Source: a virus. Taken from it: a stretch of DNA of 37,373 nucleotides. The position numbers and the translations under genes were made by a program. The stretch spans positions 1 through 37,373 of IMG/VR virus record IMGVR_UViG_3300046673_000059. The stretch is one strand, 5' to 3'. Within the stretch, counting starts at the first letter, position 1. Each line of letters opens with the position of its first letter. The notes under the pieces are model-generated. The model searched no databases. It saw nothing but the letters and a program-made list of their open reading frames with translations, and was not told the DNA's origin. Below, one piece after another: positions 12,002-35,950 of this stretch.

Positions 12002-12150
12002 TGCCCTGGACGCCGAAACAGGTGCGGCTGCTGCTGAGCAAGTATTCGCCGCTAAAGCCTGAACAGCAAGAGAAGATGAAGGCCGAGTTGCATGCCAAAC
12101 CGGCAATGGGTCACGCCCGCAAGGGTAGCGAGGAGCTGAAAAAGTCATGA
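12001..12150 (+). CDS. Small protein, MPWT family
   Basis: 49 residues beginning MPWTPKQVRLLLSKYSPL and then KMKAELHA, a pattern I recall in small phage proteins of unknown role near terminase or portal genes. Both ends overlap neighbours (TAATG and ATGA), so it is coupled. Its N-terminus resembles the protein at 12856. Confidence 0.65.
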   Translation: MPWTPKQVRLLLSKYSPLKPEQQEKMKAELHAKPAMGHARKGSEELKKS

Positions 12151-12551
12151 AGAAACTGCTATGTCTGTTGTTGTTGGCTTTTGCACCGTTGGCGCACGCA
12201 GTCACCTGTGATCAATGGGCGGTGGGTTCCGATACTGCCTCTGGATTGACGCAGATTGTGGCGCTGCAGACCGGTAAAAGCGTCTATGTATGCTCGTGGT
12301 CTGTCACCACGGCGGTTACAACGGCGAATAGCGCGCAACTGCAATATGGGACCGGCAGCGCGTGCGCTACCGGCACTGGAAGTCTGAGTTTGATTGCGCC
12401 ACTCCAGGCAATTACCACTCAGACGGCCTATTCGTATTCCTATTTCTTGCCGGCGAATGCCAACTGGCAAACGCCTCTCAATAATGCGCTGTGCTTGAAT
12501 CTAGGCGCGGCTACGAATGTCAACTACCAAATCAACTATGCAGTGCAGTGA
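12147..12551 (+). CDS. Exported cysteine-containing protein
   Basis: 134 residues. MKKLLCLLLLAFAPLAHA is a textbook Sec signal peptide with cleavage expected after residue 18. The mature part is beta-rich and carries four cysteines in VTCDQW, YVCSW, SACATG and ALCLNL, able to form two disulphides in the periplasm. No enzyme motif is seen. It lies between terminase and portal and is coupled to its neighbour by ATGA. Confidence 0.65.
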   Translation: MKKLLCLLLLAFAPLAHAVTCDQWAVGSDTASGLTQIVALQTGKSVYVCSWSVTTAVTTANSAQLQYGTGSACATGTGSLSLIAPLQAITTQTAYSYSYFLPANANWQTPLNNALCLNLGAATNVNYQINYAVQ

Positions 12552-12559
12552 GGAGCCTT

Positions 12560-12856
12560 ATGGCAAAGAAGGTCATTCGCAGGATCTCGATTGAGCCGGC
12601 GGAGAATGGCGGCCACGTGGTGGAGCACAACTATAAACCGCAGCCAGCTCACAGTTCGAAGAATGGCATGGGGATGGAATATCCCGAATCGGAGACCCAT
12701 GTCTTTGGTCCAGAACAAGGACATGCCATGCTGGCGCATGTTGCCAATCACCTGGAGATCCCCGAGGGCGAGGAAAAGCCGGAGCATGACAAGAAGAATC
12801 TTGAGAAGATTCGCTCTTCCGAGAACAAGTTCATCGACAAGGAAGAGGCAGAATAA
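12560..12856 (+). CDS. Small charged phage protein
   Basis: 98 residues from ATG 12560 with AGGAG at 12551-12555. The N-terminal part contains a beta strand-like VIRRISIEPAENGGHVVEH and a central His-containing segment. The C-terminal third is acidic and basic in alternation, probably helical. No function is known. The stop is in TAATG overlap with the next gene. Confidence 0.6.
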   Translation: MAKKVIRRISIEPAENGGHVVEHNYKPQPAHSSKNGMGMEYPESETHVFGPEQGHAMLAHVANHLEIPEGEEKPEHDKKNLEKIRSSENKFIDKEEAE

Positions 12857-13017: not shown

Positions 13018-13020
13018 GAA

Positions 13021-13620
13021 ATGCCTTTGTCTGAGGATCTGGAAAAACTAAAGAACGATCCCAACCTGGTCGCTGGGATGATTGCGCGGATAGCGCCGCG
13101 GATCAGGGACCACGAACACCTGACGAACAAGTTGTCAACGGTGCCGTTGGAGTGGAAGCAGATTGTCTATGACATTCTGAAGCCGAATCTGCGCTTTCAG
13201 GCCTGGCCGCTGCATCGCTATATGTCGGCTGCCGCTGACCGCGCGGTGCGGGAGATGCTGCCGACGATTCAGCAATGGGACGGGCTTCATGCGGAGGCAA
13301 CCGCTCGCGTGCAATCGCAGCAGGCGGAGGGCACTATCGAATCTGAATGGAGCCTCAACCCGCAAAAGGAAGTCTATTTCTCGCGTGAGATTGCCGATGC
13401 CGAAAGCGCAATCGCTGATGGGCTGGCCACAACAGTTCTGCTACTGGTTTGCGGTAAATGCACAGAGCGCGCGGAATTTCGCGGCGTCGGCGATGAAACG
13501 CCGGTTGCTGTGATGATGAAGGCGCGGCGAGCTGGCTGGATCTACGACAACACAGGCGATACGCCACGCGAGATTTGTCCAACATGTCCAACCTCACTTC
13601 GAAAGGAAACGATCCAATGA
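13021..13620 (+). CDS. Hypothetical protein with zinc-ribbon-like C-terminus
   Basis: The 199-residue protein is helical from about 1 to 135, then has C144-x2-C147 and C186-x2-C189, a likely zinc ribbon, in the C-terminal 60 residues. No family is recognised. Its stop overlaps the next start as ATGA at 13617-13620. Confidence 0.6.
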   Translation: MPLSEDLEKLKNDPNLVAGMIARIAPRIRDHEHLTNKLSTVPLEWKQIVYDILKPNLRFQAWPLHRYMSAAADRAVREMLPTIQQWDGLHAEATARVQSQQAEGTIESEWSLNPQKEVYFSREIADAESAIADGLATTVLLLVCGKCTERAEFRGVGDETPVAVMMKARRAGWIYDNTGDTPREICPTCPTSLRKETIQ

Positions 13621-14621
13621 AAAACGCTCTCTTTGCTTTATTGCTGTGCATAGCTTCGCTGGGCGCCCAGGCGCAGGGCGGTGGTACAGGCCAGGGATGG
13701 CCAACGGTGCTTTACTACACCAATTCTGTAGGGGGCACGATCACCGCAACCAACGCGAATTGTCTTGCTGTGGCGCAGACGGCATGTGTGTATCTGCAGG
13801 TGCCGCAGGGCGCGGCTACGGCCAGTATGGTGATCACAGGTACCTGGTCAGGAACATTGCAGTTTGAAACGACGCCCACTACGGCGATGAACTATAACCA
13901 ACTCGATTCTCTGGGTATGTGGACGAGCGCGGCCTCGGCGACAAGTAATGGAACCACTACGATCACGGTCGGCAATCAGACATGGGTTCGTGTGCGGGCA
14001 TCGGCATGGAGTTCAGGCACGGCGAACATCGTCTTAATCGTATCGACGAATCCCGCATTGCCGCCGTCTACGAACGTAACGCTGAGCCTTGCTCAGACCT
14101 TCACCGCGGCCAATACTTTCAGCGGTGGTGTGATAAATACCACGACTCCGATCCGCGACACTACACAGCAGGTGCTGGCAGCCGCCATGACCGCAACAAG
14201 CGCCGCAACGGTGGCTATCGGCTCTACAGGCTCGGGCAATGCTGCTTTTACCTGGCCGGTGACTGCGGCAAACTGGTATGACTTGCATTGCAAGTTTCCA
14301 GTAACCTTTGTTGCATCCGCGACGGTCAACTTTCAACTCTATGCTATTTCTGGAAGCCCAACCATTTCCTTTGTAAATACCGAGAGTTCCGGAAACACGG
14401 CTGGGTCGGCGGCATTTCAGGATGTATACACTACCGGCAGCTCACTGGCTACCACCACTACCACTACGGGAGCTCCGGGGGCGGTCAGCGAGATGGTCAC
14501 GGTTGATTTTCAATTCCTAAGCAGCCATTCAGGCAACATAGGTATTGAATTCAGCGGCAACACTACAAACAACGTCACCCTCCTCGAAGGCGGAAAATGT
14601 GGCATCACACAGATTAACTAG
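13617..14621 (+). CDS. Exported beta-sandwich virion-type protein
   Basis: 334 residues. A signal peptide spans residues 1-19, ending GAQA. About 57-145 forms a domain with CVYLQVP, ITGTWSGT, NYNQL, WVRVRASAWSSGTA, which recurs near the N-terminus of the tailspike-type protein at 31756. A later part (about 165-334) is Thr/Ser-rich with two more cysteines. The composition resembles phage fibres and decoration proteins. The gene lies just upstream of the portal. Confidence 0.65.
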   Translation: MKNALFALLLCIASLGAQAQGGGTGQGWPTVLYYTNSVGGTITATNANCLAVAQTACVYLQVPQGAATASMVITGTWSGTLQFETTPTTAMNYNQLDSLGMWTSAASATSNGTTTITVGNQTWVRVRASAWSSGTANIVLIVSTNPALPPSTNVTLSLAQTFTAANTFSGGVINTTTPIRDTTQQVLAAAMTATSAATVAIGSTGSGNAAFTWPVTAANWYDLHCKFPVTFVASATVNFQLYAISGSPTISFVNTESSGNTAGSAAFQDVYTTGSSLATTTTTTGAPGAVSEMVTVDFQFLSSHSGNIGIEFSGNTTNNVTLLEGGKCGITQIN

Positions 14622-14662: not shown

Positions 14663-16747
14663 TTGATTAAAGACGATCCTCAACTCGGGACCAAGGATGA
14701 GGCGCTGCTGAAGCGTATCCGGCAGCGCTTCTCCTATGGCATGAACAAGTGGCGCCGCAACCGCGAAGAGGGCCAGTTGAACATGCGGTACGTGGCCGGC
14801 GACCCATGGACCGATAAAGACAAGGAAGCGCGCAAAGATCGCCCGACGGTCTGCCCGGATGAGCTGAATCAGTATGTCAATCAGGTTGTGAACACGGCGC
14901 GGCAGAACCCGCGCGGGATCAAGGTGGACCCGGCGGGCGACGATGCGACCGACAAGCTGGCCGAATACCGCGAGAACCGGATCAGGGCAATCGAGTATGC
15001 CTGCAACGCCTCTCAGGTCTATGTGAATGGCCTGCAGGCTGCCGTGGAGCGCAACATAGGCTACTGGAAGGTTAGCCGGGCTTATGTCTCCGACGAAAGC
15101 GATGAACAGGAAATTCTAGTGCTGCCGGTGCAGAATCCCGATGCGGTGCTGATTGACCCGGATTTCAAGGAATTGGACGGCAGTGACATCCGGTGGGCCT
15201 TCGAACTGGATAAGATTCCACTGGATGATTTCGAAATCGATTATCCGCGCGCCGAAAAGACGAGCTTTCAGGCTGAGGACTTTGGCGGCGATTCGGCGAC
15301 CGATTGGTACGATGGCAAATCGATCCTTGTGGCCTCGTACTGGGAGATTGAGAGGGAAGCCACTTCTAAGCGCGCGAAGCGGGTTGTGAGGCAGTACATC
15401 ACCAACGGCGCGGAGATTTTGAAAAAGGGCGCGGAGCAGCCTGGGCCATATATTCCCATCGTTCCCGTTTTTGGCAAGGAGCTCTGGGTTGATTACACGG
15501 GGACACCCGAGCGACTACTGATTTCGCTAATCTCGCTGGCGCGCGATCCGCAGAAGGCGCTGGCTTATGTAATGAGTTCGATGATTGAGGATGCTGGGCA
15601 GATTCCTAAAGCTACCTTCATCGGAGCGAAAGGGCAGTTTGAGTGTGATTCAGAGAACTGGGCACTGATCAACAAGGTCTACTTTCCAACGATACAATAC
15701 GATCCGGTTGTAGATGCAGCAACCGGGCAAGTGTTGCCGCCTCCGACGCGCGTTCAATTGACTCCGAACTTTCAAAGCTATGCCGCCGGCATTGATGTAT
15801 GCCGGCGGGCGATCCAAGCGGCGATGGGCGTGAACGCTCTGCCTACGGCGGCGCAGAGGCAGAACCAGAAGTCGGGCGTGGCTTTAGAGAAGATTCAGAG
15901 CGAGCAATCGATTGGCAGCTATCACCTGGTGGACAGCTACGACCGCGCGATCAAGCTGACCGGGCGCATCATCAACTGCTGGCTGCCCGAAGTTGACCTG
16001 GGCGAGACGAAGCGGCCGGTGCGGCTGGCGGACGGCAAGCACAGGCTGGTGCAGATCAATACCGACGCCGCGGTGATCGAGGGGGATCATGAGTATCACT
16101 TCCCGATCGCGGATGACAAAGGCCGCTATCAGGTCACGATTTCGAGCGGGCCGTCAAGCGAGAGTGAGAAGCAGGACGGGCGCGAGTTTGCGACGGGGCT
16201 TTTACAGAACCAACAGGAGCTGCAATTCCTCTCGCCGCAACAGCGAACGGCGATTCTCGCCCTGGGCGTGCGGATGATGAAGCTGGGGCCGCTGGGAGAC
16301 CAGATGGCCGATATTATCAGCCCGCAGAATCAGAACGCCCAGCAGGCGCAGCAACTGAGCCAGATGCAGCAGCAGGGCGCGGCGATGCAGCAGCAGCTTG
16401 CCGAGTTGAATGGGTTGGTGCAAAAGCTGATGCTGGAGCGGCAGGGGAAGGTGATCGAGATGCAGGGCAAGGCCGAGCAGGTGAAGATGCAGGAGGATAC
16501 CAAGCTCGCCGTGGCGCAGATCAATGCCAGCAAGGATACGAACGAGTCGATTGCCGACCGGGAGATTCAGGTCTACGAGATGCTGCACGACTCAGCGCAT
16601 GAGGTGGCAATGCAGGCAACCGATCAAGCGCATCAGCAAGGCATGGCTGCGCAGGCACAGGCGGCGGCAAGTCAGCCAGTCAGCCAGTCGGCTAGTCAGA
16701 CGCAGCCAGGAGCAGGCGGTACAGCTACTCCGCAGATTTCACAGTAA
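14663..16747 (+). CDS. Portal protein (P22 gp1-like)
   Basis: The 694-residue protein is close to the length of P22 portal (about 725). The N-terminal helical part contains WRRNREEGQLNMRYVAGDPW and the DRPTVCPDELNQYVNQVVN block typical of P22-type portals. The middle has the VLPVQNPDAVLIDPDF wing segment. The C-terminal 170 residues are Gln-rich and helical, as in the portal barrel. Start TTG 14663 has AGGAG at 14651-14655. It forms the dodecameric DNA gate of the capsid vertex. Confidence 0.9.
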   Translation: MIKDDPQLGTKDEALLKRIRQRFSYGMNKWRRNREEGQLNMRYVAGDPWTDKDKEARKDRPTVCPDELNQYVNQVVNTARQNPRGIKVDPAGDDATDKLAEYRENRIRAIEYACNASQVYVNGLQAAVERNIGYWKVSRAYVSDESDEQEILVLPVQNPDAVLIDPDFKELDGSDIRWAFELDKIPLDDFEIDYPRAEKTSFQAEDFGGDSATDWYDGKSILVASYWEIEREATSKRAKRVVRQYITNGAEILKKGAEQPGPYIPIVPVFGKELWVDYTGTPERLLISLISLARDPQKALAYVMSSMIEDAGQIPKATFIGAKGQFECDSENWALINKVYFPTIQYDPVVDAATGQVLPPPTRVQLTPNFQSYAAGIDVCRRAIQAAMGVNALPTAAQRQNQKSGVALEKIQSEQSIGSYHLVDSYDRAIKLTGRIINCWLPEVDLGETKRPVRLADGKHRLVQINTDAAVIEGDHEYHFPIADDKGRYQVTISSGPSSESEKQDGREFATGLLQNQQELQFLSPQQRTAILALGVRMMKLGPLGDQMADIISPQNQNAQQAQQLSQMQQQGAAMQQQLAELNGLVQKLMLERQGKVIEMQGKAEQVKMQEDTKLAVAQINASKDTNESIADREIQVYEMLHDSAHEVAMQATDQAHQQGMAAQAQAAASQPVSQSASQTQPGAGGTATPQISQ

Positions 16748-16815
16748 GCAACTTCGCCTCTCCGGCGTTAAGGGGAAATTTCGCTGGCCCGGCGTAAGGG
16801 CAGAAGGTGTGCGTT

Positions 16816-17916
16816 ATGGAAGCAACAGTTGAGACGGTAGTCGCGGAATCGTCCGCCGCAGAGACAACGACGCAAGCGGACTCGTCAACCGTAAGTTTTG
16901 AGCAACCAAAGTCAGGCACGCCGGAATATGCCGAATGGCGCACGACTGGCAAGCTCCCTGAGAAGAAACAACCGAAGGCGGACCCCGGCCCCGCTGACAA
17001 GGTGAAAGAGCCTACCTCCGACGCAGCCGACCCGGAAACGGCATCAAAACCGCAGGAGCAACATACAGGACGCAAGCGCAAGCCGGATGCCGAAGCGCGA
17101 ATCCGCGAGCTGACTGAGGAAAACCGGCAGCTCAAAGAGGAACGCGAAAAGGTCAAGCCCGCAGCCGAGCAGCCGAAGCCCGCGCAACAGGCGCGGGAGC
17201 ATGCCCTCACGCGCCCCAAGCCGACAAGCGACGCCAAAGGTTCCGACGGAAATCCCAAGTACGCTACATATGAGGAATATGTCGAGGACCTGACGGACTG
17301 GAAGGCTGAGCAGCGTGAGGCGATGCAGCAGCGCGATCAGGCGGAGAAGGCCTCGATGGCTGAGATAGCGAAGCAGCTGGAGAGCGCCCGCACCCTGTAT
17401 GGCAAAGAAGAGGCCGATAAGGTCATCTACCCGACCAATAAAGCGATCAGCGAAGATCAGGCAATCCCGGTTGGTGTTAAGGAGATACTGGGAGAGTCTG
17501 AAGTTTTTCCGCACATCCTTTTCACTATCGGAAGCGACCCGGATGAACTGGCCGCATTTATCCAGATGGCGAAGACAAAGCCCGGGAAAGCGATGCGCTA
17601 TATTGCGAAGGTCGAAAGCCTTATCGAAGACGAACTGGCTGGGAAGACTGCGGCTGAACCTGCCGCGGCTGCGACGATCCAAACCGGCAAAGATGCCGAT
17701 GGGAAGTTCACCTCAGCCGAAAAGCCTCAAGCTCCCGCAAAACGTGGCCCGGAAAGCACCCCACCGCCGCCTCTCGAAGTTGGCGGCCGGGGAGCCGGAA
17801 CGATGGATGAATCGGCCCGCGCGCTTTCCAAACTGAAGGACGGGGACTCAAACGCATTCCGCGACTATCTGAGAGCGGAAAACGCGAAGGAGTTGCGCCG
17901 CCGCAGAGGAGAATAA
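16816..17916 (+). CDS. Scaffolding protein candidate (P22 gp8 position)
   Basis: 366 residues, strongly charged and Ala/Glu/Lys/Pro-rich, with disordered N-terminus and helical middle (about 90-190) of coiled-coil character. A YAEWRTTGKLPE segment is one I recall from phage scaffolds. The position between portal and coat is the scaffold position in P22. Start ATG 16816 is preferred to GTG 16807. The basic C-terminus would bind coat protein. Confidence 0.7.
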   Translation: MEATVETVVAESSAAETTTQADSSTVSFEQPKSGTPEYAEWRTTGKLPEKKQPKADPGPADKVKEPTSDAADPETASKPQEQHTGRKRKPDAEARIRELTEENRQLKEEREKVKPAAEQPKPAQQAREHALTRPKPTSDAKGSDGNPKYATYEEYVEDLTDWKAEQREAMQQRDQAEKASMAEIAKQLESARTLYGKEEADKVIYPTNKAISEDQAIPVGVKEILGESEVFPHILFTIGSDPDELAAFIQMAKTKPGKAMRYIAKVESLIEDELAGKTAAEPAAAATIQTGKDADGKFTSAEKPQAPAKRGPESTPPPPLEVGGRGAGTMDESARALSKLKDGDSNAFRDYLRAENAKELRRRRGE

Positions 17917-17919: not shown

Positions 17920-19170
17920 ATGGCACTAAACAATTTCACGAACACAACGCTAGTCTGCGCCGAGACTCTGAGAATCATGCTCAACAAGCTCGTCGTCGCA
18001 GATTGCTTTAACCGCACCGTCGAGCCTGAGTTCAAGAAGGAACTGGCCGTCGGCACAACCGTCTTCAAGAAGTTTCCGCAGCTCTGGATCCCGTCCGATG
18101 GGATGGGCTATCAGCCGCAGGGTATTGCGCGCCTGCAGACGCCTGTCACGCTGAACCAATGGGTGCAGATTGCTTGGGAGTGGGACGACTTTGAGACCGC
18201 GCTCAAACTGGAGCGCAGCGAACAGGAACTCAAGGATAACTACCTTGACCCGGCCGGCGCCGCGATGGCTCAGGAGTGGGATTCGCGTTGCGCGCTGTTC
18301 GCGAAGAACAACACATCTATGCTGGTGGGCGCGCTGGGAGTCGATCCCACGTCCGTTTCCACGTATTACTCAGCTCGCAACAAGCTGAAGCAAAACGCTT
18401 GCGGCGAAGGCCCGCTGAAGATGATCACCTCTTCAAGCGCGCAGGGAACTCTCGGCTCGAACGTAACCGCGATCTTTCATCCGGACAATGAGATTGAACG
18501 GATATGGGATACGGCCTATCTTGGCAAGCTGGCGGGCTTCAAATTCTTCGATTCGCAGTCGCTCTATTCACACACTGCTGGCACCTGGGCGGGAACCAGC
18601 GGCTATCCGATCACGAGCGGAGCGAACCAGAGTGGAACTTCGCTGGTGATTACCGCGAATGCTGGGGACACGTTCAATAAGGGCGACAAGTTCTCCATCG
18701 CCGGTGTGAACCAGGTCAATCCGATGACACGGCGCCTGGCTGGGCCGGCGTTCAACAAGGTCTTCACCATCACCGCGGACTACACGGCGGTGGGCGGGGC
18801 TGGAGCGGATACGATCAGCTTCTTGCCGGCGATCTACGGGCCTGGTTCGCAGTATCAGAACGTGGATGCGCTGCCCGCCGCGGGCGTCGCATTGACATTG
18901 TGGCCGGGTACGACCTCGCCGAACGGCAAAGTTGGGACATGCGCACTCGGGCTGCATCGCGATGCATTCGCCCTGGTCGGAACCAAGCTGTATGAACCGA
19001 CCTCAGTGGAAAAGCATGGGCAGATGCAGGACGACGACACGGGCCTGAGCATCCGCATGGTCATTGCCTGGGACCCGGTGCGATCGATGCGCATCAACCG
19101 CATGGATTCGCTGGGCGGCTTCGGCAACCTCTTTCAGGATCGCTGCGCAGTCGCAGTGGCGGCCAGCTAA
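17920..19170 (+). CDS. Major capsid protein (P22 coat, gp5-like)
   Basis: 416 residues (P22 coat is about 430). The N-terminal part (ALNNFTNTTLVCAETL, then FKKFPQLWIP) fits the P22 coat family, with HK97-like fold plus an inserted domain. ATG 17920 has GAGGAG at about 17907-17912. It is followed by a hairpin rather than a strong terminator. It lies directly after the scaffold gene. Confidence 0.85.
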   Translation: MALNNFTNTTLVCAETLRIMLNKLVVADCFNRTVEPEFKKELAVGTTVFKKFPQLWIPSDGMGYQPQGIARLQTPVTLNQWVQIAWEWDDFETALKLERSEQELKDNYLDPAGAAMAQEWDSRCALFAKNNTSMLVGALGVDPTSVSTYYSARNKLKQNACGEGPLKMITSSSAQGTLGSNVTAIFHPDNEIERIWDTAYLGKLAGFKFFDSQSLYSHTAGTWAGTSGYPITSGANQSGTSLVITANAGDTFNKGDKFSIAGVNQVNPMTRRLAGPAFNKVFTITADYTAVGGAGADTISFLPAIYGPGSQYQNVDALPAAGVALTLWPGTTSPNGKVGTCALGLHRDAFALVGTKLYEPTSVEKHGQMQDDDTGLSIRMVIAWDPVRSMRINRMDSLGGFGNLFQDRCAVAVAAS

Positions 19171-19251: not shown

Positions 19252-20229
19252 ATGAAAAGATTTGCAGCGGTATTGTCTTTCTTGGTGGTTCTGGGGAGCA
19301 TGGCGTTGAATGCCCAGACCATCCTGACCAACACGACACTTTCGACGGCGCTCACCACAACGAGCGGAACCGTCTTAACCCTCACCTCGGCCACCGGCGT
19401 CAACGCGCCGAATACGACCGACCCCACCAAGGCGACCTTTCTTTATATCGACCGCGAATTGATGGGCGTGACAGCCGTTAGTGGCACGACTATCAACGTC
19501 TCGCGCGGCGTGGCTGGGACGGTCGCGGCCAGCCATATAAGCGGCGCCGTTGTGTACGTGGTCCCAAACTACGAAGGCACATGGTTTCAGTTGCAACCTC
19601 CGCAGGGCTCCTGTACGCGCGGGCAGGGAATTGCGCAATATCTGCCGGTGCTTTCTGTCACCTACGGGGTTTTCTCCGATTGCAATGGCGGGCAATGGGT
19701 TAATTCCTTCACATGGTCGCAGACCACACGGCAGATCGGGCACTACCTTATGTCGCCGGCCTATGGGGCTTTGAATGATGGAGCCGCCCTCGGCACAAGC
19801 ACAGTTACGGTGGCGGCCGAATTGTACTGCACGGAAATCGATGTTCCAAACACAAAACTCTTTACCGGGCTCGGCTTCCATATGGGAGCCACGGGAAATG
19901 GAACGGATAAGTGGATCTCCGCTCTGTACGATTCAAGCGGCGTCCTGTTGGCCAATTCCGCATTGGCTGGAACCGCTCCATCGGGAACCAACTATGTGTG
20001 GGCGCAACTCCCGTTTACTTCACCCTATTTGGTGGTGGGTCCGAGTGTCTATTACGGCTGCTTTATGAGCAATGGAACCGGCGACTATGCGGACCTCATC
20101 AAGACGGCCTACGGGGAGTGGCAGTACACCTACAAGTCGGGATCGGCTGGAACCTTTGGCACGCTTCCGAGCTTCACCGCCCCCACTCAATTCACGACAG
20201 TCAACGGGCCTTTCCTGTATCTCTACTAA
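19252..20229 (+). CDS. Exported virion-type beta-rich protein
   Basis: 325 residues. A signal peptide of about 21 residues (MKRFAAVLSFLVVLGSMALNA). A domain at about 22-105 has Thr-rich strands and a LYIDRELMGV segment as in phage tail and decoration proteins. The later half has WSQTT and FTGLGFHMGATGNGT segments resembling surface-displayed beta domains. Cysteines in GSCTRG, SDCNGG, LYCTE and YYGCFM could form disulphides. It directly follows the coat gene. Confidence 0.6.
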   Translation: MKRFAAVLSFLVVLGSMALNAQTILTNTTLSTALTTTSGTVLTLTSATGVNAPNTTDPTKATFLYIDRELMGVTAVSGTTINVSRGVAGTVAASHISGAVVYVVPNYEGTWFQLQPPQGSCTRGQGIAQYLPVLSVTYGVFSDCNGGQWVNSFTWSQTTRQIGHYLMSPAYGALNDGAALGTSTVTVAAELYCTEIDVPNTKLFTGLGFHMGATGNGTDKWISALYDSSGVLLANSALAGTAPSGTNYVWAQLPFTSPYLVVGPSVYYGCFMSNGTGDYADLIKTAYGEWQYTYKSGSAGTFGTLPSFTAPTQFTTVNGPFLYLY

Positions 20230-20746: not shown

Positions 20747-21508
20747 ATGACTCCCAACTCCATCACGGTCACAGCGCTCGATCTGATCTCGGCGGCAATG
20801 CAGGAGATCAACTACCTGGCGGCAGGGGAAACTGTGCCTGCCGATGACAGCGCGTGGGGGCTGCAAAAACTGCAGCGCCTGATCGACCGCTACAACGCGC
20901 GCGAGGCGATGATCTACAACGTGGGGTTTGAGCAATTCACGCTTGTACCAAACCTTGCGCCGCATACTATCGGGCCGACCCCAGCAGTGGGGCCGGCTCC
21001 GACTTTCATTGTCAATCAGCGGCCGGTGGATATTCCCAGCATCGGTGTGCAACTTGTCAGCAGCACGCCGGTGACTGAGGTTCCGCTCTACAAGATGACT
21101 CAGGATGAGTGGGCTGCCGAGCGCGTCAAAAACCTGACCAGCTCTTTTCCAACGAAGTACTATTACTCGCCCGACTGGCCGAACGGCAGCATTTTCTTTT
21201 GGCCAATTCCGACAGCGGTCAACAATGTGCTGATCCAGCAGCGGCTAGTGCTGGCGCAGGTCACCGCCTACAACCAGAAAGTCTCAATGCCGCCGGCATA
21301 TTGGGATGCGATCGTGTACCCGCTGGCGATCAGCTTTTGCCCGTCATGCGGAAAATCGGCCAGCCCGGAGTTGAGGCAGCTCGCGGCCGAGGCTCTCAAG
21401 GCGATGCAGACCAACAATATGAAATCGCCCAAAGGGACGACGCTCGATGCCGGGATGCCGGGAACGGGCAATGGCGGGTTCAACTGGCAGACGGGGGGAC
21501 CGGCCTAG
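20747..21508 (+). CDS. Head-tail adaptor, P22 gp4-like
   Basis: 253 residues, longer than P22 gp4 (about 166). The LQKLQRLIDRYNAR opening, YNVGFEQFTL, then WPNGSIFFWPIP and MPPAYWDAIVYPLAISFCP blocks match the gp4-like tail accessory family that binds beneath the portal and closes the capsid. An insertion around 68-105 accounts for the extra length. The stop is directly followed by the gp10-like start. Confidence 0.8.
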   Translation: MTPNSITVTALDLISAAMQEINYLAAGETVPADDSAWGLQKLQRLIDRYNAREAMIYNVGFEQFTLVPNLAPHTIGPTPAVGPAPTFIVNQRPVDIPSIGVQLVSSTPVTEVPLYKMTQDEWAAERVKNLTSSFPTKYYYSPDWPNGSIFFWPIPTAVNNVLIQQRLVLAQVTAYNQKVSMPPAYWDAIVYPLAISFCPSCGKSASPELRQLAAEALKAMQTNNMKSPKGTTLDAGMPGTGNGGFNWQTGGPA

Positions 21509-26126: not shown

Positions 26127-27097
26127 TTGCGGGCGGCCTAGCCGCAGCCGGTACTTTGGGCTCCGGATTACTGAAGTCCAGCGCGGCGAAAAAAGCCGCA
26201 TCGACACAGGCTGATGCCGCTACCAAGGCTGCTCAGATGCAGGCCGGGCTTGGTGAGGAATCGCTAGGCGTCGAGGAAAATGAAAATCAACAGAATAACG
26301 CGAATGAGGCTCCCTACCTCCAAAGCGGCGCAAATAGCCTTGCAACGCTTGATTACCTGATGGGAGTGGGAGGATCTTCCTCTGGCGCAACCATACCGGG
26401 GTCTACACTTAGTATTCCAGGGTCTACCGGCTCAGTTTCCATTCCAAGTTATACCTCGCCTTCGGGCACAGCAAATACCGCTCTGGGCGCCTATGGCTCG
26501 CTGATGAAAGGCTATGGAGGCGGCGAATTCCAATCTCCTACCGCTGAGCAAGCCCGCCAGACGCCCGGTTATCAGTTTGCGCTCAATGAGGGTGAAAAAG
26601 CGGTGCAGGCGGGAGCCTCGGCGCAGGGCTCGCTGCTGACTGGGGGAACGCTGAACGCGGAAAACCAGTTTGCGCAGGGAATGGCCGACACTAACTATAA
26701 CACCACCTACAATCAGGCGCTACAAAACTACAACATGAACTACAATACCTGGGCGAACCAGCAAGCGAACCAATTCAATCGCCTTTCCACACTTATCGGA
26801 GGGGGTCAGACCGCGGCGCAGGAATTGGGTTCGACGAACACGGCAACGGCAAATCAGGTTGCGAATACCTTGAGTAATACCGGACAGCAGGTGGGAGCGA
26901 ATATGAATAACGCTGCCGCCGCAACCGCATCCGGCTACGTTGGGAGCGCCAATGCGCTGGGCAGCGGCATCACAGGAGCGACCGGAGGCCTGAGCCAGAT
27001 GATGATGCTGAATCAGCTGATGAATAGCAACGGCTCCGCTAAAAATATGAACAACATGTTCAGTGATTCAGCGAACGCGCTGAATGGAATAGGATAA
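26111..27097 (+). CDS. Ejection-type protein, P22 gp7 position
   Basis: 328 residues with a hydrophobic Gly/Ala-rich N-terminus (about 1-22), then Gln/Ala-rich helices and the SPTAEQARQTPGYQFALNEG block, which I recall in phage DNA-transfer proteins. The last third is Asn/Gln/Ala-rich and low-complexity. It is the first of three consecutive genes of increasing size, as are 7, 20 and 16 in P22. It could insert in the host envelope during DNA delivery. Confidence 0.65.
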   Translation: MSGILIAGGLAAAGTLGSGLLKSSAAKKAASTQADAATKAAQMQAGLGEESLGVEENENQQNNANEAPYLQSGANSLATLDYLMGVGGSSSGATIPGSTLSIPGSTGSVSIPSYTSPSGTANTALGAYGSLMKGYGGGEFQSPTAEQARQTPGYQFALNEGEKAVQAGASAQGSLLTGGTLNAENQFAQGMADTNYNTTYNQALQNYNMNYNTWANQQANQFNRLSTLIGGGQTAAQELGSTNTATANQVANTLSNTGQQVGANMNNAAAATASGYVGSANALGSGITGATGGLSQMMMLNQLMNSNGSAKNMNNMFSDSANALNGIG

Positions 27098-27101
27098 CGC
27101 C

Positions 27102-28880
27102 ATGGCAACCATACCACTTCCCGCGCTTCATACCGAGCCTGTTGCGCCGCCGCCCAACCCACTGCAGATGTATGGGCAGTTAATGGCCATTAAGAACGCG
27201 GAGCAGGAGCTGAGCCAAAGACAGGCGATGGCTCCAATTCAGCAGGAGCAGGCTCAGCAGCAGGTGCAAAGCGGTCAGCTTGATGTCGAGGCAAAGCAGC
27301 GCGCGGCCGCTAACGAGAAGGCTATGAGCGCGACAATGAAGGAATGGGCTGGCGGCGGATCGGCGCATGGCTCAGACGGGAGTGCAACTGGCGGCGCACC
27401 AAGCGAAGCACAGCCCGCAGTGCAACAAACAGGAGCATTTAGCAATCCGGAGACCGGCGAGCAATTGAGCGGCGGCACACCTCTCACTGTGAAAGGTCCA
27501 TCTGGGGCAGGCAAGCAGGGAGCATCTGCAAGAACCACGCCGAGCTACGATGACCTGATTCCGCTGGCCATCAAAAATGGCGCATCTTACTCTACAGTTC
27601 AGGCGCTTCAAGCTCATGTGCTGGATATAAAGGCGAAAGCCTCCACGATTGCGAAGGATGATGCTCAGGCGGGATCAGCCAGAGCTGAAACCATGATCAA
27701 GAACAACGGCATGATCACCGACGCCATGAACGGGGTGATGAGCTTGCCGGACAATCAACTCCAGGTGGGCATTCTCAGGGCCGCGCAGGAATTGTATGGG
27801 AAGGGTATCTTCGACCAGCAGCACCTGCAACTGGCGCAACAAGTTGCGCAACTCGCGCAGACCGATCCGGATGCGGCACGCCATCAACTCAATGTCCAGA
27901 ACATAAGCATGGGGGCGTTTTCAAAGGAGCTGGAGAATGCAGGGAAGCAACTCGGCAATCAAAAAGCGCAAGGGGAGGCGACTTGGCGCGCAGATAACAA
28001 TATGCCGGCGGGAGTCACGCCCGAAGAAATGTCTTTAGCTGCATATCAGAAGGCCAATCCAGGCAAGACGGCGGCGGATTATACGGTGTGGAAGGCTCAC
28101 AACTCGCCTGTGATGATGATGAACAACATGGCGAACGGCATGGCGGGCGGTCCCAATGCTCCGCAAGCGCCAGGCGGCGGCATTGACTGGGGAAAGATCG
28201 CTGGGCATTATGGCATGACGCCCACAGCTTTCGATCAGCAGGCCGAACAGGCTGGGATTGGGAAGTTTCCGCCTATCGGGCGCAGCGCGAACGCTATCGC
28301 GATGAACCGCGACCTGATGAATCGGTATGGCGAACTACACCCCAACGCCTCAATTCCGCAAAACTCCGCTGAATACAAGAGCGCCTCCGCATCGCTGAGC
28401 AAGCTGCAAACAAACTTCTCTCAGGTACAGGCTTTCGAGGGAACGGCGGATAGGAATCTTGACTTGCTGATGCAGGTTGCCGCGAAGATTCCGGATCTTG
28501 GTACGCGCTTCGCAAATATCCCCCTGCGGTCGATCAATGCGCAGATGATTGGCACTGACAATATGGCGGCCTTCAAAACCATATTGAACACAAGTCAGAC
28601 TGAAACTGCGAAGGTGTTGAACTCCGCCAATGCGAGCGGCATCTTGTCTGATAGCGCCCGGCATGAGATGCAAGAGATCATTGACGGAAACCTGCCTTTC
28701 AGCGCACTGGGCGCCTCGCGCAACATAATAAAACAGGAGTTTGGAAACCGCAGTCAAGCCTATCAGGATCAGATCAATTTCCTGCAAAATCAACTGAAGA
28801 GCCCGGGCGGCGGAGGGGCTGGCGCGCAGCAGCAGACGGGAAATAATCCATTCTCATCCTTTGGAGGGAGTACCCACTAA
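27102..28880 (+). CDS. Ejection-type protein, P22 gp20 position
   Basis: 592 residues. The N-terminal 80 residues are Gln/Ala-rich coiled coil. A Gly/Ser linker follows to about 150, then helical regions through to a Gly/Gln-rich end. No enzyme motif is seen. Length and order fit an internal ejection protein (P22 gp20 is about 470). The stop overlaps the next start as TAATG. Confidence 0.6.
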   Translation: MATIPLPALHTEPVAPPPNPLQMYGQLMAIKNAEQELSQRQAMAPIQQEQAQQQVQSGQLDVEAKQRAAANEKAMSATMKEWAGGGSAHGSDGSATGGAPSEAQPAVQQTGAFSNPETGEQLSGGTPLTVKGPSGAGKQGASARTTPSYDDLIPLAIKNGASYSTVQALQAHVLDIKAKASTIAKDDAQAGSARAETMIKNNGMITDAMNGVMSLPDNQLQVGILRAAQELYGKGIFDQQHLQLAQQVAQLAQTDPDAARHQLNVQNISMGAFSKELENAGKQLGNQKAQGEATWRADNNMPAGVTPEEMSLAAYQKANPGKTAADYTVWKAHNSPVMMMNNMANGMAGGPNAPQAPGGGIDWGKIAGHYGMTPTAFDQQAEQAGIGKFPPIGRSANAIAMNRDLMNRYGELHPNASIPQNSAEYKSASASLSKLQTNFSQVQAFEGTADRNLDLLMQVAAKIPDLGTRFANIPLRSINAQMIGTDNMAAFKTILNTSQTETAKVLNSANASGILSDSARHEMQEIIDGNLPFSALGASRNIIKQEFGNRSQAYQDQINFLQNQLKSPGGGGAGAQQQTGNNPFSSFGGSTH

Positions 28881-31081
28881 TGGCTACCACGATGCCCATG
28901 TTGGCCCCGGATGGAACTAGCGGGGAAATCCCTGTCGCACGGATCGGCGATGCGCTTAAGGCCGGATTCAAGCAGGCTGTGGCTATGGTTGCGCCCACCG
29001 GCGAATCAGGCTGGATTCCCAGTGATCAGGTTGAGGCGGCAAAGGCGAAGGGCTTTGACGATTCTCCGCAGACGCTTATCCAGGCGCAGCAGAAGCTCTT
29101 CGCTGCAGGCAACAAAAACGCCGCGCCTGTCTATAACTACCTGGTGCATAGCGGCCACGCAAAGGTGAATGCGCAGGGCGGACTTGAGCCCATGGATCAG
29201 ATGGGTCCGCAGCCAGGCTGGGGCGAGCAGGCGCTGTCTCTGATCAAGCACCCGCTGAACTCGCTGGAAGAGGGCGCGCAACCTGTCTCACGGCCGCGAG
29301 ACGCCAGCGTTGGAGAGATGGCCACGGCGGACGCGAATAACATAGTGGCCGGCGTGACCAATGTTGTCAGGCATCCGGTGCAGACGTCTGAGAGTGTTTT
29401 AGCGCCAGTCGCTGACCTTGTGACGGGTCCGTTTGAGAGTATGGCAGGCGACCCCAACGCCTTCTCTCACATCAAGGAACTGGCAGCCGGTGTGGCTGAC
29501 CTGCTGCAACATCCCTCACCTGAGAAGGCTACTTACGCTCTTGGGCAGGCGATTGCAACGGCGGGATTGATGAAGGGCGTTGGGATAGGCGCCGAAGCCG
29601 GTGCGAGATTGGTGCCAGAGGGTACAGTGCCTGCGGTTGGGCATGCTGTGCGTAGCTTGCTCGCCGGGGACGTGAATGAGCCGATTCCGGGAACTGACGT
29701 GACGCCGGCGGCGCGGTATGCCTCGATGAAGGATATGGGCATCCAGCCGAATGCTGCTGAGGCTACGAACTCGACGCCCCTAAAAATGGCGGAGTGGATG
29801 AATGAGGACAGCCTAACCTCTGCGCAGACCTATGCAAAGGCGCGGGGTAAGAATCTGGAGGCGCTGAACGATTACACGAATAATGTATTGGATAAGATGT
29901 CGCCGAAGGGCGCGGAGGAGGGCGGCGCGGCTGTGCAGCAGGGACTGCGCAACGCGCAGGTAGGCTTGCAGAATGATGCGGCTGAGGGCTTCTCGAAGCT
30001 TGATCGTGCAGTGGGCACCCGTAGGATGTCAGGAGGGACGCTGCAGGAGACCGCGAAAAATATCTATGATGCGAACGCGGATTACTATAAAGCTCACCCT
30101 GAGCTGGTTCCTGGTAACGCATGGAAGATTGTGAAAGACCTGGCCGGAGCGGATAGTGACTTCCAATCACGCCCGATGAGCTTTGGCGAAGTACATCAGC
30201 TCCGGAGTGATCTGCTGGAGCTGGTGCGTAGCAACCCTGACATCGTGACGAACCAGGCCGGCGGCTGGCTGAAGCAACTGGCGCAGGCTGCGGACCAAAC
30301 GATAACCTCTGGAGCAACGGGTCTTTCGCCGGCAGGAACGCAGGTATTCCGGGACGCGAACGAGGCGTGGGCAAACATGAAGGGCACCTATGATAACCCT
30401 TCGCATCCGTTCTATAATGCCGTTCGCACACCGACGCCCTCAAATCTGGTCAAAGGTATCGGGCAGACGCCGGAGATGACGAAGGCGCTCACGGACGCCC
30501 TGGGCCCAGACGGGATGGGACCTATCCAGCGCGGAGTGGCTGAGAACCTGCTGCGCACGACCAAGGAAGGCGGCTATAACTTTAAGACCTTCCAGGGTCA
30601 ATGGAACAAGCTGAAACCCGCATACCGCGATGCGCTGTTTACGCCTGAGCAGCAGCAGCAGCTTGCGGACATTGGCAATGCCGGGACAGTGCTGCATGAT
30701 GACATCAACCCTAGTGGTACTGCACATCTGGGACAGAAGATGGGTGAGATGGGCGAGGCTGGCTCAGCGATCGGCGCAGCGGCTCTGGCGCATCCGCTTC
30801 CCCTGGCCGGAACGGTAGCTTACCATGCAGCGCAGTATGCACTGGGTAAGCTGATGAACGCGCCGACATTTGTGGACTGGCTGATGCGGGAGCGGGTAAC
30901 TCCCGCACTTACAGCGGCGCAAGCGAGTGGTGGTGCATCGACAGGACGGCTGATTCCGGCGGCGGTGGCCAGCGGAGCGATGGGTAGTAGGACCGGACCG
31001 GACGGGCAGCCTAACTTCTACTCGGATGAGTATCTGCGTTCAAAGGCGGCGTTCGATGCCGCACGAAACGCTGCGCAGTAA
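28880..31081 (+). CDS. Ejection-type protein, P22 gp16 position
   Basis: 733 residues, the largest of the three. The N-terminus has a repeated short motif with GESGWIPSDQV, of the kind seen in phage internal proteins. The centre is helical and Ala-rich with a coiled-coil region at about 300-480, followed by a segment of hydrophobic helices (about 620-670). The C-terminus ends in a charged stretch. No lytic domain recognised. Its 3' end is overlapped by a minus-strand gene. Confidence 0.6.
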   Translation: MATTMPMLAPDGTSGEIPVARIGDALKAGFKQAVAMVAPTGESGWIPSDQVEAAKAKGFDDSPQTLIQAQQKLFAAGNKNAAPVYNYLVHSGHAKVNAQGGLEPMDQMGPQPGWGEQALSLIKHPLNSLEEGAQPVSRPRDASVGEMATADANNIVAGVTNVVRHPVQTSESVLAPVADLVTGPFESMAGDPNAFSHIKELAAGVADLLQHPSPEKATYALGQAIATAGLMKGVGIGAEAGARLVPEGTVPAVGHAVRSLLAGDVNEPIPGTDVTPAARYASMKDMGIQPNAAEATNSTPLKMAEWMNEDSLTSAQTYAKARGKNLEALNDYTNNVLDKMSPKGAEEGGAAVQQGLRNAQVGLQNDAAEGFSKLDRAVGTRRMSGGTLQETAKNIYDANADYYKAHPELVPGNAWKIVKDLAGADSDFQSRPMSFGEVHQLRSDLLELVRSNPDIVTNQAGGWLKQLAQAADQTITSGATGLSPAGTQVFRDANEAWANMKGTYDNPSHPFYNAVRTPTPSNLVKGIGQTPEMTKALTDALGPDGMGPIQRGVAENLLRTTKEGGYNFKTFQGQWNKLKPAYRDALFTPEQQQQLADIGNAGTVLHDDINPSGTAHLGQKMGEMGEAGSAIGAAALAHPLPLAGTVAYHAAQYALGKLMNAPTFVDWLMRERVTPALTAAQASGGASTGRLIPAAVASGAMGSRTGPDGQPNFYSDEYLRSKAAFDAARNAAQ

Positions 31082-31755: not shown

Positions 31756-34700
31756 ATGATGAAACGGACCTTTGGAGTCCTTGCGATGGTGTGCGCGATG
31801 GCCGGCGCGCTGTGCTCTCAGAACACTACGACTTTTGGGAATATTGTGGCCATGGGAGTGCCCTGCGGAGCGGTCAATTGTGTTTATTACCAGTTGCCGG
31901 CGAGCACGCCTTCGGTGGCGATCGCGGTAACGGGGACATGGAGCGGCACAATTGAGATTGCGACGACGAGCGATCCAACAGCAAATTACGGCAACCTGAG
32001 CACGCTGGCCTGGACGGTGCTGGCGACCGAGACGGCGAACGGGAGCTGGAGCGCGTCTACGAGCGGGGTGATCTATCTGCGGGCTCGAGCGACGAGCTGG
32101 ACAAGCGGGAGCGCGCGGGTGGCTATGACGAGCTCACAAAACTGGACAATCCCGTTGCCTAATCCGCTTTTTTCGGGAACCGTAACGGCGAATGGCCTGC
32201 AGGCTCCAGATGGAGGGTCGGGATCAAATTGCTGGTATACAAATGGATCGAGCGGGGCATGTGGCAGCGGCGGCATGACCTATCCCGGAGCTGGTATTCC
32301 GCTCTCGACGGGCAGCGCATGGGGTACATCATTGACAGCGCCGACTGGTGCGCTCGTTGGAGCTGGGCAGGCAAATACTTATACGTCTGGTTTACAGGAC
32401 TTATCCGCTGTTACAGTCAAGTTAGGAGGAATATCCGGGCCGATTTCTGGCCCGTCAGCTAGTTTTGGCACGATCAACAATACCTGCATGGCCGATCAGC
32501 AGGCGGGCGCGGACATGGGCGCGAAGATTGCCGCCTGCAACGCGGCTTTGGTTGCTCTGCCTATTCCTAGCGGAGGGATCATTGATGCGACTGGCTTCCA
32601 GGGAGTGCAGACAGCTTCTTCGGGTTTCACCGTGGGGCAGCGTTCATCGCTCAATTCCGCTCCGTATGCAAGCGTGACGCTGAAATTAGGGACCGTTCAA
32701 CTCACAACTGGAGATACAATCCACATGGGTCCAGGTTCGTACATCCAAGGAACGGGATTTATAATCAGCCCATCGAACCCCGAATCATATAGTTCGCAAA
32801 TTATAGGGAATACGTCTGGAAAGCCCGTTATCGATATGATTGGGACTCAGGCATCGAGTATCAGGGGCGTGAGCATTGTCGGAAGCTGTGTTACATCTCC
32901 CACTACCGGAATCACCGTTGCGCGCTTGAATTTAACCAATGGCTATCACGAGGGCAACGAAATCAAGAATACCTCAGTAACAGGCTGCTTTAGCGGGGCA
33001 GCGGTATATGTTGTGGCGACAGAGGTTTTTACAGTAGATCGCCTCTTTGTTGACGTGCAGGGAGGGGGGGCAAAGTACGGGCTTGACATTTCGCAAATCG
33101 ACAATCTTGGCCTTGGGATGTTTCAAGCTGTAGGAGCGACGATGATCGCCGGGAGTGTGACAAATACTTGGGTTCAGTACACGGCAAGTGGGGTAGCGGG
33201 TTCCGCGGGAATCTATTTTGGAGGCGGAGGCGCTACGCGGGAATGGAATTTTGAAAACGACTATGTGGATAAAAGCGATACGGGCGCATTTGTCGAAATC
33301 GAGACAAACCAGATATTGAATGGAGTGACATCTTTAGGTTCAATGGGTGGTCCAAACTATTTTACAAATGTGGATGGCGAGAGGGAAGGTGGAACGCCTA
33401 ACACTGGATTTTGGATTCATGGCACTCAAATAGGGGGTCAGCCCGCTAGTATTCTTCAACTGCGCATCGACGGCATATCTATCATGCCCGCTACGAATAA
33501 CTACATAGACGCAAGCACGGTTACACTGGAAGATGCGCATATTTACGCCGCGGGATTTGCTTCTGGAACCGGCCCCGCCATTTTTGGAACTGTGTCAAAC
33601 TCCGAGCTGTATCTGCCTTTCGTCATATCGACGATCGGCAATGCGTACAATTCAGACCTGACAGGCGGAGAAACTCAGTTTTGCGGAACATGCTCTCTAA
33701 CGGTGACGGGCTACAACACAAGTAGAATACACGCAGCCCAACAGTTGCCCAGTTATCCAATTACATACAATTATCCGCAACTGCACAACGCTTCCGTGGA
33801 CTATATCAACGGAATCTCCTATGATGCGTCTAATCTTACTAATCCCTCCAGTGCGCCCTCTGGAGTGCCCTTAACGACTGGTGGCACTATACCAATAAGT
33901 AATTTTAATTACGCTCAGATTGTGGCATTTACAGACAACTTATGCACCGTTGGACATACATTGCCGACGGCAATATCTTCCGCCGTGATAACCACAACCG
34001 CAGTATCTTCGATCTATTGGTCATGGCCGCCCACTCCCAAAGCACAGTGCTATCAGGTGTGGTCTTGCCAAGGGTCTGGTTGTACGCCAATATATTACTT
34101 CACAAGCACGCAGAATACCTATAATCAGACAGCACCCGCATCATCAGGAACGAGCGGAACACTGCCTGTAGCTAATACCAGCTCCGGTAGCTATCAAATC
34201 AATGGAGTCCCAGTGCTACAGTCCGATGGATCTACTACTTACATAAACCCAGTAAACAAGACTACCGGAGAGGTTGAATTTAATTTGGGCAGCCCTTGTT
34301 ATGGGTATGTCCCGGCTTCTGCTAATACACCGGCTGGTTTCACATGCGGCGTAGCAAACTTAAATGGGACACTGCTTGACTATAGGCTCCTTGGCGCATA
34401 CGGGACTCCGACAATAGATAAGTACGTGCAGTTGAGCGATGGAACGGGCGTTACTAATCACATGGCGGTGTATGACGCGAATCATGGCTTGACGGACGGC
34501 GGCTCGGCTCCCAGCGGCCAAGTGGCTGCGAACCTGGCGAGCTCCGGGGCGACGGGAGTAACAGGAATCCTTCCAGGAGCAAACGGAGGCACTGGCGTAG
34601 CCAACACCGGAATAACTGAGACGTTCGCCGCGAATTTTAATACCACCGGAACAGGCGCGCCGACGTTGGCTTTTCCCGCAACGACCTCTTACACTTATAC

Positions 34701-35172
34701 GCACCCGGCTTATACGGGGACGATACTAGAGGAGACGGCCTCGGACACAACCACAACCCACGTCTGTCACGCTACGGCAACCACGGGTGTATGCACATTC
34801 AGCGCCGTAGTGTCTGCGGACTTGCCATCGCAGTACAAAATATGGACTTGTGAAACAGGCTTGGGAGATGGCCTGAATGCCTTCACGTCCGGCACCTATC
34901 ACCAGCATTTCTGTGTGAACAAAACTGGCGGGACGGTGACGATCACGGGAGTCTCCTGTTATGCCGATGGCGGGACGCCTACCCTAAATGCTTCAGGGAC
35001 CACTCTCGGCGCACTGTTGACTGGGGCTGTTACTTGCACGACAGCCACAGCCGGAGCAGCCGGAACACAGAGCGCGAATGTCGCGCTGACGAATGGTGAC
35101 GCTATCGACTTCACCTTTGTATCTGGCAGCACAGCCACACAGACCAATTGGGTGGTCACGGGGACTTATTGA
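31756..35172 (+). CDS. Exported tailspike-like protein (1138 residues)
   Basis: ATG 31756 (or 31759) follows GAGGG. A signal-like N-terminus spans about 1-21. About 42-127 is a domain shared with the protein at 13617 (CVYYQLP, VTGTWSGT, NYGNL, YLRARATSWTSG). Around 236-650 the DQQAGADMGAKIAACNAAL opening and repeated short beta turns suggest a pectate-lyase-like beta-helix, as in phage depolymerase tailspikes. Around 700-800 are FN3-like strands. Near 944 a GANGGTGVANTG motif marks a fibre shaft, and the C-terminus (about 1010-1138) is a Cys-containing beta domain. Catalytic residues cannot be assigned. Confidence 0.75.
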   Translation: MMKRTFGVLAMVCAMAGALCSQNTTTFGNIVAMGVPCGAVNCVYYQLPASTPSVAIAVTGTWSGTIEIATTSDPTANYGNLSTLAWTVLATETANGSWSASTSGVIYLRARATSWTSGSARVAMTSSQNWTIPLPNPLFSGTVTANGLQAPDGGSGSNCWYTNGSSGACGSGGMTYPGAGIPLSTGSAWGTSLTAPTGALVGAGQANTYTSGLQDLSAVTVKLGGISGPISGPSASFGTINNTCMADQQAGADMGAKIAACNAALVALPIPSGGIIDATGFQGVQTASSGFTVGQRSSLNSAPYASVTLKLGTVQLTTGDTIHMGPGSYIQGTGFIISPSNPESYSSQIIGNTSGKPVIDMIGTQASSIRGVSIVGSCVTSPTTGITVARLNLTNGYHEGNEIKNTSVTGCFSGAAVYVVATEVFTVDRLFVDVQGGGAKYGLDISQIDNLGLGMFQAVGATMIAGSVTNTWVQYTASGVAGSAGIYFGGGGATREWNFENDYVDKSDTGAFVEIETNQILNGVTSLGSMGGPNYFTNVDGEREGGTPNTGFWIHGTQIGGQPASILQLRIDGISIMPATNNYIDASTVTLEDAHIYAAGFASGTGPAIFGTVSNSELYLPFVISTIGNAYNSDLTGGETQFCGTCSLTVTGYNTSRIHAAQQLPSYPITYNYPQLHNASVDYINGISYDASNLTNPSSAPSGVPLTTGGTIPISNFNYAQIVAFTDNLCTVGHTLPTAISSAVITTTAVSSIYWSWPPTPKAQCYQVWSCQGSGCTPIYYFTSTQNTYNQTAPASSGTSGTLPVANTSSGSYQINGVPVLQSDGSTTYINPVNKTTGEVEFNLGSPCYGYVPASANTPAGFTCGVANLNGTLLDYRLLGAYGTPTIDKYVQLSDGTGVTNHMAVYDANHGLTDGGSAPSGQVAANLASSGATGVTGILPGANGGTGVANTGITETFAANFNTTGTGAPTLAFPATTSYTYTHPAYTGTILEETASDTTTTHVCHATATTGVCTFSAVVSADLPSQYKIWTCETGLGDGLNAFTSGTYHQHFCVNKTGGTVTITGVSCYADGGTPTLNASGTTLGALLTGAVTCTTATAGAAGTQSANVALTNGDAIDFTFVSGSTATQTNWVVTGTY

Positions 35173-35173
35173 T

Positions 35174-35950
35174 ATGAAGAAGATCACAGCACTTCTCACC
35201 GCAGGAGTATTCTGGCTCTGGATGATCGTACCTGCGCCAACGCAGACGATGATTGTGGGGAAGCACCGTGTTACAGCGGCAACCGGCCCAACTTTGATTG
35301 GCCGCACCTATTGTGCGGATGCATATGTGTCCAGCGAATCTACCGCTACCTGCGGCGGGGGCGGAGCCTTGACTACCAATGTGGGGGATGTCATTGTTGT
35401 GAATTGCAGCGCAACGGGATATTTGACAATCACCAGTATAAACGCCTCCGACAGCAAGAGCAACAGTTATACTCAGGGAACCTTTGAGCAGCCTGGATTA
35501 TATTATTACTCCAATCAGCAACTAAACTATTCAGTCGTCTCATCGTCAGGGTCAACAAATTTCATTTGTATAACAGCTCCTACGAATACGGTGCATATAT
35601 CCATGACAGTGATGCAATATCGTGGCCTCGCGGGAACATTGAATACTTCTCTATTTGGCAAGAACGGGCCAAATAGTTCCGCGTTTTTAACAAGCGCATT
35701 TACTACCACGGCAAGAGCGCTGATTGTGGCGTGTGCCGGAGCCGGACAGGCGGGTGTGTGGACTGCGGGAAATATCGGCGGCAGTGCTGGAACGCTGGTC
35801 GGCGTATCTGGAGCGACACTCGGCACCAGTTCTACAAACGCCTGCGAAGCACAAATAGCTAGCAGCTCGATCTCTTCTGGCACAGCGGCAATGACGGCAA
35901 CCGGCTCTTTGGGTGATTATGGTTATGGGGTACTGGCGTTCAATTACTAA
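35174..35950 (+). CDS. Exported adhesin-like tail protein
   Basis: 258 residues. A signal-like segment (about 1-25) is followed by an Ig-like beta domain with YCADAY and TATCGG cysteines, NVGDVIVVNC and INASDSKSNSYTQ, then YYYSNQQLNYSV and an MQYRGLAGT strand. The pattern resembles surface beta proteins with a DSxxNxYT motif. It starts 2 bp after the tailspike stop, so it may be a companion or branch protein. Confidence 0.65.
   Translation: MKKITALLTAGVFWLWMIVPAPTQTMIVGKHRVTAATGPTLIGRTYCADAYVSSESTATCGGGGALTTNVGDVIVVNCSATGYLTITSINASDSKSNSYTQGTFEQPGLYYYSNQQLNYSVVSSSGSTNFICITAPTNTVHISMTVMQYRGLAGTLNTSLFGKNGPNSSAFLTSAFTTTARALIVACAGAGQAGVWTAGNIGGSAGTLVGVSGATLGTSSTNACEAQIASSSISSGTAAMTATGSLGDYGYGVLAFNY

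Follow-up and report, generated by a model that had tools for sequence, protein, structure and literature searches.

Structural module and signal-bearing genes of the window

An IMG/VR virus record of 37,373 bases is analyzed here and called the window. Its + strand has a structural module with the P22-type genes in order (portal, scaffold, coat, hub, ejection), and Xanthomonas phage PBR31 has this gene order too. By this gene content the window is a P22-like podovirus, of soil type and with relatives in Acidobacteria. Genes are named by their start positions, and the following members of the module carry no signal peptide:

14663..16747, + strand: P22-type portal (PF16510, E 8.7e-95)
16807..17916, + strand: scaffold protein (phrog_8865, E 6e-12)
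17920..19170, + strand: P22-type major coat protein (PF11651, E 2.7e-18; phrog_283, E 2e-49)
20747..21508, + strand: head-tail adaptor-like protein (phrog_12985, E 5e-31; phrog_637 head-tail adaptor, E 6e-4)
21509..23095, + strand: tail hub or packaged-DNA stabilisation-type protein (phrog_578 head closure Hc3, E 7.5e-89)
25644..26126, + strand: short-tail-fibre-like protein of 160 aa (phrog_12032, E 1e-7)
26111..31081, + strand: three internal or ejection-type proteins (26111, 27102 and 28880) with zero cysteines

Within the last group, 26111 matches phrog_598 (DNA ejection, E 7e-16), and 27102 and 28880 are internal-type proteins by position and composition. By PHROG comparison, no signal-less adhesin candidate was recognised in the window except 25644, which could serve as a cytoplasmic receptor-binding protein. 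Predicted signal peptides (SP) are found on the following genes, the lysozyme being the seventh and belonging to lysis:

2034..2537, + strand: lysozyme with a cleavable-looking Sec signal, MKATRFILALLLLGCFPVHA (PF00959, E 1.6e-17; phrog_7 endolysin)
12147..12551, + strand: SP protein of 134 aa, signal MKKLLCLLLLAFAPLAHA at 12147-12200; mature part small, Ser/Thr-rich, with 4 cysteines
13617..14621, + strand: SP protein of 334 aa, signal MKNALFALLLCIASLGAQA at 13617-13673; mature N-domain a beta-sandwich 'VTGTWSGT' tail domain
19252..20229, + strand: SP protein of 325 aa directly 3' of the coat gene, signal MKRFAAVLSFLVVLGSMALNA at 19252-19314; mature start QTILTNTT, four invariant cysteines
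23411..25540, + strand: tailspike-like protein, Sec signal at 23411-23518 (scored from the in-frame ATG at 23420); 10 mature cysteines
23519..23818, + strand: predicted tailspike head-binding (virion anchor) domain of 23411, with an extra cysteine pair, GCVFTY / TNCASG (AF2, Foldseek, HMM)
31756..35172, + strand: SP tail fibre- or spike-like protein of 1138 aa, signal MMKRTFGVLAMVCAMAGALC at 31756-31815; 22 mature cysteines
35174..35950, + strand: protein of 258 aa with a borderline signal, MKKITALLTAGVFWLWMIVPAPTQT; 6 mature cysteines

The mature part of 12147 is 43% identical over 53 aa to L012_9522, a protein of the signal-bearing tail cluster, and the N-domain of 13617 carries a cysteine pair (C49/C57) among the 4 cysteines of its mature part; neither protein had a match in GenBank phages at the limit used. 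Position and composition suggest that 31756 is a spike, as it occupies the tailspike position after the ejection genes, in the same order as in PBR31. The bodies of 23411 and 31756 gave no Pfam match.

Elsewhere in the window, the product of 7954-8898 has hydrophobic N-terminal segments followed by another signal-like stretch (final residues LAQPVKAQ), and its C-terminal part closes with GGLSYIFK; it resembles a small outer-membrane barrel and is a possible envelope or exclusion protein. A small ORF at 6800-7102 contains three in-frame copies of VFEQKSDAE, and remnants of CAGCTTTCAGC / CAACTGACAACTG-type repeats, which we take to be of a kind present in Acidobacteria genomes, lie inside or adjoining reading frames at 23411-23510, 31700-31760 and 36150-36200.

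Scoring and calibration of the signal peptides

Signals were scored using our own von Heijne-type weight matrix combined with rules for the n-, h- and c-regions, and the scorer was calibrated on E. coli genes. Among 43 annotated genes of E. coli K-12, it called 9 of the 11 exported proteins and none of the 32 others, and shuffled N-termini of the window proteins were called in 1.3% of trials. Against this background, the comparison that a preliminary description of the window had named, signals arising by chance are ruled out. Passing scores were obtained for 12147 (13.2), 13617 (11.7), 31756 (8.6) and 19252 (6.1); 23411 (6.6) combines an ideal h-region and an AxA site with a long n-region and passes from the in-frame ATG at 23420, and for 35174 (2.5) the n/h region is good and the c-region weak. 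The rest of the structural region went uncalled (terminase, portal, scaffold, coat, 20747, 21509, 23095, 25644, 26111, 27102 and 28880).

The preliminary description had assigned Sec signals to six proteins of this region. Five of them have strong signals of Sec/SPI type, with a basic n-region, a hydrophobic h-region and small residues at -3 and -1, and that of 35174 is borderline. No lipobox match was found in any of the six, nor any Tat consensus in their N-termini by inspection. Starts and frames had been read correctly, with ATG starts for 12147, 13617, 19252, 23411 and 31756, and for 35174 an ATG internal to an ORF listed from 35093. Several cysteines are indeed present in every mature part (4, 4, 4, 10, 22 and 6, in gene order); the CxxxxC-like spacing ascribed to them is wrong for five of the six proteins, occurring only in 31756, twice.

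Conservation of the signal in the 19252 family

Relatives of 19252 were found at 14 viral loci and on one MAG contig, every one of them with an export signal. All 14 viral orthologues have a hydrophobic export-type N-terminus (13 canonical, that of L014 divergent); the signal sequences differ from one another and are followed by an almost invariant mature start, QTILTNTT, and the four cysteines are invariant across the family. The viral set is partly biased, since of the two patterns used in the search one fell within the signal. Less biased support for signal conservation is provided by loci selected through their portal only (L018, L023, L024, L025, L026, L027, L028 and L031), each of which has a signal-bearing member of the 19252 kind downstream of the portal. 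The N-domain matches PHROG tail proteins (E 2e-10), and a fold search with 19252 returned weak matches only, with no confident one. We consider the signals to be real and kept by selection while the sequences diverge, in 19252 and likewise in 23411 and in 13617/31756.

Predicted tailspike head-binding domain of 23411

Over their first ~95 residues, annotated tailspikes and tail fibres from P22-like phages match the mature N-terminus of 23411. The PBR31 tail spike is one example (45% identity, E 3e-13), and its N-terminal part is called the apparent virion-binding domain in the literature (PMC10975493). Foldseek matches of an AF2 model of the domain (pLDDT 86.8) were the cyanopodophage Pan3 tailspike, the tail machine of Pam1 and the P22 tailspike head-binding domain, and a profile HMM of the domain matched PDB 7eeq, 'Tailspike head-binding domain', at E 1.4e-10. 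On these models the anchor is a tailspike head-binding domain of P22/Pam1 type, and 23411 is the sole member of the set with a demonstrable virion-anchor fold.

Viral contigs were scanned for this domain with a mixed alignment and the pattern PL[AVS][GF]Gx[VL][FY][TS]Y, in which the position of the first cysteine may be any residue and no part of the signal is included. The scan comprised 96 rows, 12 with a signal and 84 without; in the latter, from 8 GenBank phages and 76 IMG/VR rows, the head-binding domain starts the protein. 23411 differs from a cytoplasmic tailspike of the ordinary kind in having a signal, which is absent in the 84 other copies. The cysteine pair was present in 10 of the 12 signal-bearing copies vs none of the 84 signal-less ones, and the two signal-bearing exceptions (L135 and L136) sit in Acidobacteriota genomes. 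By the tree, the signal arose once or twice, so the coupling is conserved in a clade and does not represent many independent events; independent-pairs tests of the coupling were not significant for this domain or for the second tail domain, there being too few origins. The fold residues are kept in the signal-bearing copies, with 24 invariant columns.

The second tail domain

The N-domains of 13617 and 31756 are 36% identical and constitute a beta-sandwich unrelated to the head-binding domain. Viral-contig scans with the single proteins 31756 and 13617 gave no matches, and the domain was scanned likewise with an alignment. Signal-bearing copies have at least two cysteines, and 16 of the 17 unique signal-less copies do not; closer inspection of two rows first read as carrying a cysteine pair without a signal (L168 and L173) showed hydrophobic N-termini that the scorer had missed. 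As judged from these alignments, the second tail domain repeats the coupling of signal and cysteines.

Cysteine parity

Parity was counted in complete genes from viral loci. An even number of mature cysteines was found in 69 of 78 signal-bearing proteins, as compared with 230 of 502 others; all six window proteins are even, as are 36 of the 39 members of the largest signal-bearing tail-protein cluster, in which the cysteine number ranges from 2 to 26. Among homologous pairs with unequal cysteine numbers, the difference is even in 260 of 305 signal-bearing cases vs 1935 of 4763 without a signal. When one random member was taken per cluster, the excess held at a clustering E of 1e-30 (0.80 of 44, p about 1e-4) and was not significant at E 1e-3, where only 18 clusters have cysteines. 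Gain and loss of cysteines in pairs suggests that the mature proteins fold in an oxidising compartment. The pattern is the one expected from disulfide bonding and is evidence for real export that does not depend on the signal predictor.

Putative host and distribution of the domains

In GTDB the 19252 family matches one contig only; it comes from an uncultured Acidobacteria MAG and also carries a signal-bearing tailspike and the second domain. A 6.4 Mb Acidobacteriota contig contains a prophage-like region in which internal-type proteins are followed by a run of three signal-bearing tail-type proteins, with 8, 2 and 24 mature cysteines, and then a lysozyme-like gene. From the MAG contig and two prophage-like regions, we infer that the host phylum of the window is Acidobacteriota. 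Each query was searched in 396 Acidobacteriota genomes: the full-length 19252 family was found in one and the 13617/31756 domain in one, both on one phage contig, and the 23411 domain only on that phage contig, in two prophage-like regions and as two weak matches.

Signal-bearing proteins were also encountered in other settings. Loci L143 and L144 (contig C8 of genome G395, about 571-576 kb) form a prophage-like region of another kind in an Acidobacteriota genome. It encodes a tail-fibre-like protein of 1534 aa whose signal peptide is strong, so phages other than P22-like ones may share the trait. The ten GenBank P22-like control genomes contain only two structural-region proteins with a signal, PBR31 orf035 and P26218 15489-15998, with two mature cysteines each; at L035 (24674-25483) and L039 (15489-15998), in two proteobacterial P22-like phages, one signal-bearing protein with two mature cysteines adjoins the tailspike gene.

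Proposed assembly route and alternatives

The export originally proposed for these proteins is strongly supported by signals that are conserved while diverging, by the coupling of signal and cysteine pair in two unrelated domains, and by even cysteine numbers. We regard it as highly likely that the window's tail and adhesin proteins are exported, and phage tail and adhesin proteins of this kind are very probably both exported and disulfide-bonded. Masking of receptors or superinfection exclusion had been put forward as a possible purpose; the placement of a virion-anchor domain directly after the signal suggests a better fit with exported virion adhesins.

According to the route we propose, the tail adhesins 23411, 31756, 13617, 12147 and probably 35174, together with the post-coat protein 19252, would be made as Sec pre-proteins and exported by Sec during infection, signal peptidase would cleave their signals, and Dsb-type enzymes would form disulfides in the periplasm. 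DNA-filled capsids would be finished in the cytoplasm without the exported proteins. The exported lysozyme would then open the cell, and periplasmic spikes would bind the tail hub of released heads, completing the virion outside. Such late mounting is plausible because P22 particles have been completed in vitro from heads and tail parts, as indicated by the title of Israel et al. 1967, cited in PMC3741392. We lean slightly toward this full route, from Sec pre-proteins through periplasmic folding to the joining of heads at lysis, and we hold the chances to be evenly balanced that a lineage of Acidobacteriota tailed phages practices two-compartment virion assembly, with cytoplasmic heads and periplasmic disulfide-bonded adhesins joined at or after lysis.

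The main alternative is that these proteins, once exported, remain in the envelope or medium, where they would bind surface polysaccharide or break it down, prevent superinfection or keep progeny from sticking to debris, with another protein, e.g. 25644, acting as the virion adhesin. Room for it is left by 25644 itself, which resembles a short tail fibre and has no signal, and temperate tailed phages do carry envelope morons, e.g. lambda Lom and Bor. A host precedent exists in Pantoea stewartii WceF, which is exported (Tat signal), combines a P22-tailspike head domain with a beta-helix, and acts on exopolysaccharide (PMC7949094). We nevertheless judge it unlikely, though deserving of serious attention: the anchor domain is conserved in signal-bearing copies down to its fold residues, which favors mounting on the virion, the gene order is that of virion genes, and three to six such proteins per genome are many for exclusion. 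A division of labor, with 19252, 12147 and 35174 as envelope or exclusion proteins and only 23411 and 31756 as virion spikes, would accord with the virion-anchor fold being demonstrable in 23411 alone and with the weak fold matches of 19252; it appears improbable, given that 13617 shares its N-domain with 31756 and that the N-domain of 19252 matches tail-protein families.

The suggestion that the phage had captured host secreted domains, and carries them as cargo, is highly improbable. The signals and even cysteines are like those of host secreted proteins, but the domains are those of phage tail and virion families, and their near-absence from the 396 Acidobacteriota genomes outside the phage contig and prophages leaves host capture unsupported, and we reject it on this ground. 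It is just as doubtful that the hydrophobic N-termini are non-coding or vestigial, arising by chance or from misplaced start codons, with the true start at the mature N-terminus. GTG codons do occur near the mature start of 23411 in the window; however, other signal-bearing copies of its domain have no conserved start codon at that point, the hydrophobic reading frame is retained in 14 of 14 members of the 19252 family, cysteine parity speaks for export, and none of 32 non-exported E. coli proteins was called.

Relation to known systems and implications

Exported proteins encoded by tailed phages are familiar as envelope morons (lambda Lom and Bor, T5 Llp), which are outer-membrane proteins or lipoproteins without virion-anchor domains; 23411 has a tailspike domain instead. 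Filamentous phage coat proteins are virion proteins made with signal peptides, but they assemble in the inner membrane during extrusion, and the window belongs to a DNA-packaging tailed phage. The tailspikes of P22 (gp9), Pam1, Pan3 and PBR31 are like 23411 in their head-binding fold, and their phages like the window in having a P22-like module with portal, coat and hub; these known tailspikes start with the head-binding domain and have neither signal nor cysteine pair, in contrast to 23411, in which a Sec signal comes first and the mature cysteine count is even. Among phage proteins, the signal-peptide and SAR endolysins use host Sec (PMC6116005); the window lysozyme 2034 is one of these lysis enzymes, whereas the six proteins are of the tail region. 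WceF, although exported with a P22-tailspike head domain as is 23411, is a bacterial gene with a Tat signal acting on a biofilm glycan, unlike the several Sec-type proteins encoded in the phage structural module here. Reports of Sec signals on tailspikes of tailed phages were not found in the open-access literature searched, and we claim no priority.

Since signal-bearing and signal-less versions of one anchor domain coexist, the question is directly testable. For annotation, such genes can be misfiled as host secreted proteins. Assembly of tailed phages is taught as a cytoplasmic process; were tailspikes exported and only afterwards mounted, some of it would be extracytoplasmic. Receptor-binding proteins could then be shared among virions from the same or neighboring cells, and disulfide chemistry would be usable for adhesins that are stable in harsh, acidic soil.
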